A DNA stretch of 64,000 bases from Pyrodictiaceae archaeon (GTDB lineage Archaea > Thermoproteota > Thermoprotei_A > Sulfolobales > Pyrodictiaceae). The stretch lies in contig JALVSY010000007.1 of NCBI GenBank assembly GCA_027036135.1, forward strand, positions 562,880 to 626,879, written 5' to 3'. Each line of letters begins with the position of its first letter. Position 1 is the first letter of the stretch. Under the pieces are notes generated by a model. The model saw only the letters and a program-made list of their open reading frames with translations. It was not told the DNA's origin and searched no databases. A program made the translations under genes and the position numbers. Below are positions 16,368 to 19,056 of the stretch, one piece after another.

Positions 16368-16756
16368 CTAACAATTCTCTATCGAGTTAAGCGACAAGCC
16401 TAGGACACTGCACTTCAGGGTAAGCGGCATCAATGACCTTACAATTCTCTATTGAGTATTTGCGGGAGGAGCGGGGCCCGAGACCCGGCGCCCCGGCCCC
16501 GCCCGACTTTCAGTTCTTACAATTCTCTTTTGAGTTAAGCCAAGTGTTTTTCAAGTTCCTTGTTAATCCGAGGCATGCAGAAAGCGACCTAACTTACAAT
16601 TCTCTTTTGAGTTAAGCTCATCATACCCTACCGCTACGCGACAATATGGGCCAAGGAAGCCACTTACAATTCTCTTTTGAGTATTGCTAGGATTAGCACG
16701 TATACCAAAGAATCTCTCAACTATATTAGCTCTTACAATTCTCTTTTGAGTATTGC
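16368..16756 (-). CRISPR. Small orphan CRISPR array, six repeats
   Basis: Six 25-bp repeats start at 16368, 16438, 16516, 16593, 16663 and 16732. The shared core on the plus strand is CTTACAATTCTCTTTTGAGT, followed by TAAGC or ATTGC. Spacers are about 45, 53, 52, 45 and 44 bp. On the minus strand the repeat ends in ATTGTAAG, close to the ATTGAAAG handle of crenarchaeal repeats, so transcription should run leftward. The repeat farthest left (16368, CTAAC...CTATCGAGT) is the most degenerate, as expected for the leader-distal end. A TATA-like CATAAATA on the minus strand near 16805-16813 sits in the right-hand leader. No cas gene is present in the window. Confidence 0.8.
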
Positions 16757-17018
16757 TGGTATGGTTTCCTTTTGGATCCGAATAGTAACTGGTTTGAGGC
16801 AATTATTTATGCTTGCCGGAACAACTCTAATTCCTATACAATAAGTGCTCCGAGGCCCTGGGGGCTGTTCCCATGGATTCGCATGGATTCGAATCGTTGT
16901 TCCCAAGAACAAATTCAACTCCACCCACGATGTGTTCCCAAGGGAACCGAAAGAGGAGTTTAAAGAGCAAGAGGATTAGGGCAAACAAGTAATCGGAGAG
17001 AAAGGCGAAGGTTTTTTG
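16757..17018. promoter_or_regulatory. CRISPR leader and GTTCCCA repeat cluster next to xerA
   Basis: Gene-free stretch between the array and the recombinase gene. The part near the array has the minus-strand TATA-like element for the CRISPR transcript. Further right, GTTCCCA appears three times (16867, 16899 and 16934). One copy is an exact inverted repeat, GTTCCC-AA-GGGAAC (16934-16947), and ATGGATTCG is directly repeated at 16873-16881 and 16883-16891. These could be protein-binding or recombination sites, possibly for the adjacent XerA-like enzyme, but no core site could be defined. Confidence 0.45.
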
Positions 17019-18242
17019 CTATGTTTGTGCTGTTTGTCTCTCTTTGTTTGCTTGTGGCGGGGTTGGTGCAGGGGGTGTTGGTTGTGGTGTGTAGGGCGGG
17101 TATTGTGGGTATGGTGGTGGGTACGAGGGGTATTGTGTCTGTGGTTGTTGTGTTGTTTGTGGATATTGTGGTGGTGCTTGGTGTATTGGCTGGGTGTTTT
17201 GCTGGGGGGTTGGCTGTATTGGTTGCTGTGCTGGGTACGGGTTGTAGGTTGGTGCTGGGTAGGGGTATAGTGGCGGGGTTGGCGCAGGGTACATGGGGTA
17301 CTGTGGCTGCTGCGCGGGGGCTGCGAAGGCTCTCTGGTAGGCGGTTCTTATGTCCTCGTCTAGTAGGTGGAGGTAGATCTGTGTTACTTTGATGTCGTGG
17401 TGGCCTAGTAGGCGCTGGACTGCTGGTAGAGGGATGCCGCGTCTCAATGCCTCGGTTGCGAAGGTGTGTCTTAGTACGTGTGGTCTTACTTTTCGTGGGT
17501 CTATTCCTGCTCTCTTGGCTAGTGTCTTGAGGCGCTTGTAGAGCGCGCTGTAGCTTATCCCAAGCAGGTTGTCGTCTGGGCCTAGGCCGGGGTTCCTTGC
17601 TAGCCATGCCTCGAGGGCTTGCTGGGTAAGTGCTCCGTAGTAAACGGTTCTCTCCTCGCCGTACTTCGCGTTCCTTACCCTTATCTCGCGCCTGGCCGGG
17701 TCTATGTCTCGTAGCCGTAGCGAGACCGCCTCCTGTGCTCGTAGCCCCGTCTCGAACAATAGGGCAACTATTAGGAGGTCTAGGGGGTCCCTTGCAGCTG
17801 CTACTAGGCGCTCTACCTCCTCTGGGCGAAGAGCCTCCACTCTCGTGTTTCTGGGCTTCTTTACAACGGGTACCCGGACTCCTAGGCCTAGCCACTCGAA
17901 GAACCCGCGGAGGAATAGTGTGTAGTAGTGCATTGTTACTTGTCGCTCCCTCCTCTCCTCGAAGAAGTCCCTCTTCTTCGTCCTCGGTCTCTTTACCCCG
18001 TTGCTCAGCCTGTCATATATCCACGCGGCGACGTCGCTGTCGCTAACCTCTCTCAGAGGCTTACCGCCTATATAGGAGAGGAAATCAGTTATGGCTGCAC
18101 GGTAAGCCTTAATCGTCTTAGGGCTAGCGCCCCCAGCTGCTAGCGCGGCTAGGAATGCCTCAAGGATCTCACTGTTGCTCCTCTTCAGGATATCCCGTGG
18201 AGGCGGTGGTAGCTCGAAGCGAACCAATGCACCTACTCCCAA
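17019..18242 (-). CDS. xerA: XerA-type tyrosine recombinase with Pro/Gln/Tyr-rich C-terminal tail
   Basis: Site-specific tyrosine recombinase: N-terminal SAM-like core-binding domain (about 20-130) and catalytic domain with Arg in ETGLRAQEA, H-x-x-R in RPHVLRHTFA, His in LLGHHDIKVT and nucleophile Tyr in TQIYLHLL. Archaeal XerA is normally about 290 residues and resolves chromosome dimers at dif. Here residues 308-407 (17019-17321) add a tail made almost only of Pro, Gln, Tyr, Thr and Ala with P-x-Y and Y-P repeats, giving a strongly G/T-rich plus strand. The annotated TTG may be too early: TATAAT-like sequence at 18245-18252 would put transcription start near 18222. Role could also be mobile-element integration. 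Confidence 0.85.
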   Translation of the reverse strand: MGVGALVRFELPPPPRDILKRSNSEILEAFLAALAAGGASPKTIKAYRAAITDFLSYIGGKPLREVSDSDVAAWIYDRLSNGVKRPRTKKRDFFEERRERQVTMHYYTLFLRGFFEWLGLGVRVPVVKKPRNTRVEALRPEEVERLVAAARDPLDLLIVALLFETGLRAQEAVSLRLRDIDPARREIRVRNAKYGEERTVYYGALTQQALEAWLARNPGLGPDDNLLGISYSALYKRLKTLAKRAGIDPRKVRPHVLRHTFATEALRRGIPLPAVQRLLGHHDIKVTQIYLHLLDEDIRTAYQRAFAAPAQQPQYPMYPAPTPPLYPYPAPTYNPYPAQQPIQPTPQQNTQPIHQAPPQYPQTTQQPQTQYPSYPPPYPQYPPYTPQPTPPAPTPPQANKERQTAQT

Positions 18243-18318: not shown

Positions 18319-18771
18319 CTAGGCTAGACGGATGAGCCTAGATCTTCTCCGGTACCGCTCGAACTCCCCGTAGCCCACCACGTGTATATCGAAGGGGTAG
18401 TGTGCTAGCCCTATCTTCTCAAGCTCCTCCCATACCTTGGCGAGTACCTGGATCCGCTTCTCTGGCGCGATGCTCTCCTCGGGGAACACGACTAGGATGT
18501 CTATGTCGCTTAGCACTGTTAAGCGGTTCTCAGCAGCTCCCCCGAATAGGTAGACCTGGGCACTGGGGTAGAGTCTCCTGAGTATTTCTACGAGCTTGTT
18601 AACGGCTTGTCTCCACTCGCTGAGGAGCTGGAGCCTTGTCCTAGAATTCTCCCCAGTAGTTCCTCTAGGGCTTTGAGAACTCGGTGAGCGGTGTCTAGGA
18701 CTAGGCTTGCCCCCTTCTCGTTGTACTCTATGGACCCGTATGCCGCGCGTATATGTGCTTCGCTCAGCCAT
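18319..18771 (-). CDS. MNT-type nucleotidyltransferase (HEPN partner), start unclear
   Basis: The C-terminal two thirds match minimal nucleotidyltransferases that AMPylate and neutralise HEPN toxins: VYLFGGAAENRLTVLSDIDI gives the G-G/S and Asp-x-Asp motif, and PFDIHVVGYGEF supplies the third acidic residue. Recognisable sequence starts near 18633 (LQLLSEWRQAVNKL), but the only ordinary start codon in frame is ATG 18771. The first 45 residues from there are out-of-frame HEPN sequence. The gene may use a non-standard start or may have been fused or damaged together with the broken HEPN gene. Confidence 0.65.
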   Translation of the reverse strand: MAERSTYTRGIRVHRVQREGGKPSPRHRSPSSQSPRGTTGENSRTRLQLLSEWRQAVNKLVEILRRLYPSAQVYLFGGAAENRLTVLSDIDILVVFPEESIAPEKRIQVLAKVWEELEKIGLAHYPFDIHVVGYGEFERYRRRSRLIRLA

Positions 18772-19056
18772 GTTAATGCTGTCCTGTTGCGCCTAACGAA
18801 CTCTGCTAGCCGCTCAGCCTCCTCGCGGAGGCCTTGCTCGATGAGAGGATACTAGGAGGCCGAGTAATCCGGGTATATCGTGTCCATGTACCTCCTCGCC
18901 AAGGATGCGGTAAAGCACGGAGCTTGTTGCCAGCTGGGCAGCGTACTCGGCCTCGCGTGCACAGGTATCATAGTCTCTCTCGGCGCAGGCCTCCTCGGCC
19001 CAGCGCAGAGCGTTCTGAGCACGTCTCCACAGCAGTGCTGCGTATTCCCCGCTCAT
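18588..19056 (-). pseudogene. HEPN-domain toxin gene, frameshifted
   Basis: From ATG 19056 the reading frame encodes a HEPN start (EYAALLWRRAQNALRWAEEA, DYDTCAREAEYAAQLATSS) and stops near 18814. The domain continues in another frame from about 18842: EQGLREEAERLAEFVRRNRT, then ALTWLSEAHIRAAYG and GASLVLDTAHRVLKALEELL, to a TAG at 18588-18590. One frameshift near 18835-18850 therefore splits it. It precedes and overlaps the MNT-like gene, the normal HEPN/MNT order. A sequencing error could mimic this, but neighbouring metabolic genes are intact. Confidence 0.7.

Follow-up and report, generated by a model that had tools for sequence, protein, structure and literature searches.

The window analysed here is a stretch of 64,000 nucleotides from a Pyrodictiaceae archaeon of the order Sulfolobales (GenBank assembly GCA_027036135.1, contig JALVSY010000007.1). 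Its minus strand carries a gene for a tyrosine recombinase whose C-terminus continues beyond the catalytic domain into a long tail rich in proline, glutamine and tyrosine (Table 1). Translation probably begins at the second TTG of the open frame, because relatives begin there with the pattern M-V/T-R/K-F-D/E-L-P-P-P-P and GGGAG lies just upstream. Pfam searches recovered two SAM-like N-terminal domains (PF13495, PF02899) and a Phage_integrase domain (PF00589, 112 bits), all above cut-off, and the closest solved structure, XerA 5hxy, matches residues 22-303. The six catalytic residues R168, K193, H255, R258, H281 and Y290 (numbered in the 407-aa frame) are present and invariant in the alignment of relatives, so that the initial annotation of the gene as XerA-like is borne out by domains, structure and active site alike. 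Among NCBIfam models the archaeal XerA model NF040815 (recomb_XerA_Arch) is best by about 90 bits, scoring 214-215.5 bits where the cut-off lies at 220.

In a profile search of the genome to which the window belongs XerA gave the single PF00589 match and was the sole tyrosine recombinase found, and across the order XerA is matched in 111 of 118 good genomes. A hand-composed, consensus-like XerA probe served solely for locating genomes. The protein is best explained as the predicted housekeeping recombinase of chromosome resolution, XerA. An origin as a mobile-element integrase is unsupported, given that XerA is an orthologue present in one copy whose flanking genes are not shared. The xerA loci compared likewise offered no conserved neighbour as a candidate partner, and a search for dif-like sites with one pattern yielded no credible site, the pattern matching less often than its reversed control.

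Several other features were noticed around the gene. Just upstream lie genes for an NTP_transf_2 nucleotidyltransferase and a HEPN-domain protein, which by their domains are a possible HEPN/MNT toxin-antitoxin-like pair, and beyond these one for a PIN_5 domain protein. Just downstream is a CRISPR-like array of 6 repeats (CTTACAATTCTCTTTTGAGT...) spaced at 69-78 bases, whose repeat recurs on the same contig in two further clusters (C7:15861-16495 and C7:1089340-1089637), followed by an ORF that encodes a hydrophobic stretch at its N-terminus and is matched by no Pfam family.

Table 1. Positions, within the window, of the parts of xerA and of the features surrounding it
Feature	Position	Strand	Basis or remark
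ORF, 203 aa	15564-16175	minus	beyond the repeat array
CRISPR-like array	16368-16762		6 repeats
Open frame containing xerA	17019-18242	minus	407 aa/codons from first TTG
xerA ORF (probable)	17019-18227	minus	402 aa from TTG at 18227
xerA stop codon	17019..17021	minus	sequence
Pro/Gln/Tyr-rich C-terminal tail, 101 residues	17022..17324	minus	composition, relatives, frame-specific selection, outlier status
XerA core: SAM-like N-terminal and Phage_integrase domains through αN helix	17325..18227	minus	Pfam, NCBIfam, 5hxy, alignment
Probable xerA TTG start codon	18225..18227	minus	start alignment and GGGAG just upstream
NTP_transf_2 and HEPN-domain genes	18319-19056		
PIN_5 domain protein	19089-19823		matches 'RNA ligase partner protein' TIGR03875

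Composition and evolution of the C-terminal tail

The tail begins directly after the sequence AYQRAF, 16 residues past the catalytic Tyr290, at the point where the catalytic domain ends. It consists of 34% Pro, 21% Gln, 12% Tyr+Trp and 13% Thr+Ser and lacks cysteine. The initial annotation had described about 100 residues of this kind; the length and place hold (the tail proper, 17022-17324, as against the interval 17019-17321 noted earlier), while its figure of roughly 40 percent Pro was slightly high. None of the first 87 residues is charged, and charge is confined to a tip formed by the last 14, which ends in ..QANKERQTAQT. The best 60-residue segment of the tail contains 63% P+Q. In a sample of the genome made up of the window and twenty further stretches, 464 kb in all, the protein ranked second reaches 32%, out of 434 filtered ORFs at least 100 aa long. 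As the tail is the sole one of its kind in this sample, a genome-wide Pro/Gln habit is ruled out, and the richness is a trait of XerA and not of the proteome as sampled. The tail matches no Pfam family or PDB chain. It is predicted to be disordered from its composition, from a propensity scale and from this absence of family and structure matches; the short tail of one Pyrodictiaceae relative (L010) is not scored as disordered on that scale.

Tails of similar kind, which the initial annotation had proposed to look for, were found in 13 of 14 Pyrodictiaceae XerA genes as extensions of 49-170 residues rich in P and Q. They are present in all members with closed or near-complete genomes that were examined, the one XerA without a tail being that of G005. 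The anatomy seen in the window recurs throughout these 13 tails: bodies of 35-156 residues contain 0-3 charged residues and the last 14 residues contain 3-8, with 44 K/R observed in the tips against 6.7 expected when each tail is shuffled. As the net charge of the tip spans -1 to +4, we prefer to speak of a charged tip rather than of a basic one. No strong linear motif shared by the 13 tails was seen, with QP, QQP, P-x-Y and [YW]xxP moderately enriched in them, and none of the 13 contains a cysteine, so that all lack the CxxC...CxxC signature of a zinc ribbon.

Six pairs of relatives show a deficit of non-synonymous differences in the XerA frame of the tail (pN/pS 0.45-0.68, p 1e-7 to 6e-3), from alignments made at the protein level, which somewhat favours the true frame; no significant deficit was found for these pairs in the other two frames. 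The closest pair (L004/L005), aligned at the nucleotide level, is 68% identical in the tail and 41% past the stop codon, with tail indels occurring mostly in threes and the last residues, DRRRE, unchanged. Where it could be estimated, dN/dS is about 0.24-0.43 in the tail as compared to 0.03-0.15 in the core, i.e. the tail changes faster. Together these comparisons indicate that the tail is real and evolves as translated sequence in the XerA frame. The initial annotation had named an earlier true stop reached by frameshift, or a tail lacking relatives, as outcomes that would overturn its reading; neither was encountered, and a frameshift, missed stop or assembly error is ruled out by the in-frame relatives, the frame-specific selection and the drop in identity past the stop.

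A zinc ribbon at the same position in related families

Comparison of the C-termini of 124 XerA genes of the order revealed a linker followed by a zinc ribbon behind the αN helix in 48 of them, and representative extensions score far above the Pfam cut-off for the PF13240 zinc ribbon. The tail described initially proved to be real; that description had missed the ribbon, which occupies the same position in related families. A linker followed by a CxxC-CxxC ribbon is found in f4 (27/27), f5 (6/6), f7 (11/12), f10, f11 and part of f2 (2/4). Seven of the linkers, in f7, f10 and f11, are themselves Pro/Gln-rich; in f10 the linker contains Pro/Gln and then leads into the ribbon, and one linker of f7 (L033, ALAQQYPVYTPQLAPPQQPMYAPAPYPYPYAAPQQQYP...), rich in Pro/Gln/Tyr, resembles the tail in the window with a ribbon attached. 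The XerA proteins of f8 and f9 end shortly past αN, and f3 is mixed, with 14/35 classed as Pro/Gln-rich ribbonless tails, often with basic residues at the end. Both outgroup XerA, taken from other orders of the class, carry a ribbon immediately after αN. Of the XerA from outside the class, those matching a ribbon-bearing query best mostly stop aligning at about its residue 300-308.

Two further observations concern the C-termini of these enzymes. Some distant tyrosine recombinases of the phylum (e.g. those of G394, G462, G239 and G318; weaker matches) align through the ribbon of a ribbon-bearing XerA query, and C-terminal ribbons on archaeal tyrosine recombinases may be commoner than has been described. 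In family f6 the XerA frame (L045 533-2464; also L047 and L049, and partly L048) extends beyond the catalytic Tyr by about 330-340 residues, and its last part overlaps a gene for a CTP-dependent riboflavin kinase (PF01982) that lies on the same strand in a different frame; this long overlap may be either used or a mere absence of stops.

We investigated the origin of the tail using quick maximum-likelihood trees with SH-aLRT support only. A sister grouping of Pyrodictiaceae and f10 received a support of 99 in one tree and 96 in a rooted tree from which two long-branch rows were left out. With the outgroups included, parsimony reconstructs a ribbon at the root and needs six changes, the same number as a scenario of a single early gain and then six losses. 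For the common node of Pyrodictiaceae and f10 it leaves the state ambiguous, and it is also compatible with separate gains of the ribbon in individual families. On the simplest account of these distributions the arm with a ribbon is ancestral and underwent several losses, the tether being retained and enlarged in Pyrodictiaceae and part of f3. Under this scenario the ancestral arm would have combined a tether with a ribbon; the ribbon would have been lost in Pyrodictiaceae, and the tether retained and lengthened to a disordered chain of Pro, Gln and aromatic residues with a short charged tip.

What the arm may do

Bacterial XerC/D end near αN. The P. abyssi XerA (PMC2958812, PMC3646895) and 5hxy are, like the protein in the window, two-domain tyrosine recombinases with the R-K-H-R-H-Y constellation, but in P. 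abyssi αN is described as the extreme C-terminus (PMC3646895) and 5hxy aligns only up to this helix, whereas the protein in the window has 101 residues beyond it. The zinc-ribbon XerA proteins of f4, f5, f7, f10 and f11 (PF13240) are orthologous and carry their extension at the same position, several with Pro/Gln/Tyr-rich linkers, yet they end in a CxxC-CxxC ribbon whereas the Pyrodictiaceae tails lack cysteine. A zinc ribbon has likewise been added to the XerC/D-like tyrosine recombinase of the ALOG/DIRS1 group (PMC3537659). In the open papers searched, no description of a zinc ribbon of XerA or of the tail of Pyrodictiaceae was found.

In bacterial SSB, too, a domain that acts on DNA is followed by a C-terminal arm made of a disordered Pro/Gln-rich linker and a short tip of charged residues. 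The resemblance to the XerA tail is one of layout, with no homology, and serves as a lead only; SSB has an acidic, conserved tip, whereas that of XerA is mixed to basic and variable.

We consider it probable that the Pyrodictiaceae protein is a XerA whose C-terminal arm, a ribbonless descendant of the ancestral tether with its ribbon, acts as a flexible tether. Anchored at the end of αN, such an arm would be in a good position to keep a partner protein, DNA or an adjacent XerA subunit close to the synapse. For Pyrococcus XerA it has been proposed that αN changes its packing from cis to trans when recombination takes place; P. abyssi XerA lacking αN still cleaves but no longer recombines, and its higher-order assembly is weakened (PMC3646895). 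Given this proposed switch, a tether on the end of αN could contribute to the assembly or the timing of the tetramer where FtsK is lacking. Archaea, unlike the hosts of bacterial XerC/XerD, have no FtsK homologue (PMC8371274, PMC5357621), XerA is thought to act without it (PMC2958812, PMC8371274, PMC5357621), and what sets the time and place of archaeal XerA action is an open question (PMC8371274, PMC5357621). In the bacterial system FtsK-γ is involved, and contacts close to the recombinase's C-terminal helices control recombination (PMC5052618). Against the flexible tether count the fast evolution of the tail, the lack of a strong shared motif, the tailless XerA of G005, the ambiguous ancestral node and the ability of P. 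abyssi XerA to recombine dif in vitro with no partner present (PMC2958812).

The strongest rival holds that the arm is a tolerated leftover: with the ribbon lost, the linker would drift in sequence and length under weak selection to stay soluble and unstructured and would do nothing specific. The rapid change of the tail, its lack of a strong motif, its absence in G005 and much of f3, and short imperfect repeats in the coding DNA suggestive of growth by slippage are all as expected of such a remnant. However, 13 of 14 family members have retained the tail, its Pro/Gln make-up is held while the sequence changes, selection operates in the XerA frame, the charged tip is non-random and nothing alike is seen elsewhere in the genome sample; hence we regard a mere leftover as possible but not probable.

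A more specific proposal is that the arm is a lineage-specific docking device, a ribbon on a tether in some families and a disordered sticky arm in Pyrodictiaceae and f3, which would recruit a partner from chromosome segregation or division and so do for XerA what FtsK does for bacterial Xer. We hold this proposal to be unlikely.

The initial annotation had mentioned protein binding and condensation as possible roles of such tails. The idea of self-association, in which a prion-like sticker-and-spacer tail would condense XerA, or XerA with DNA, around dif, appears quite unlikely to us. An uncharged Pro/Gln body with 6-13 aromatic residues fits it in composition, and the aromatic residues of the tails are spaced slightly more evenly than in shuffled sequences (pooled p = 0.02); but this signal is weak, being one of several statistics looked at and significant alone in 1/13 tails, the tail in the window is not rich in N or G, and growth near 100 C would make weak contacts doubtful.

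Highly improbable is the notion, foreshadowed in the initial annotation, that the G/T-rich strand forms unusual DNA structures of which the tail is a by-product: in the plus strand at 17019-17321 G indeed makes up 47% and T 37%, and GGG occurs in 17 runs, but this strand contains no canonical G-quadruplex (four runs of three or more G, loops of 1-7 bases), third-position C is lower in the tail than in the core, the constraint tracks codon position and protein frame and ends at the stop codon, and the strand asymmetry follows from the protein, because Pro codons favour CCA (21/34) over C-runs.

The flexible tether that we favour would make Pyrodictiaceae XerA look like a clear case in which, among proteins of extreme thermophiles, a tether lost its folded module but itself persisted and grew. 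More generally, the comparisons suggest that the C-terminal arm of the XerA family is changeable and may serve to recruit partners or DNA. As this arm is widespread in one archaeal order and lies behind a putative switch helix, it offers a concrete part of the enzyme to delete, to swap or to use as bait.
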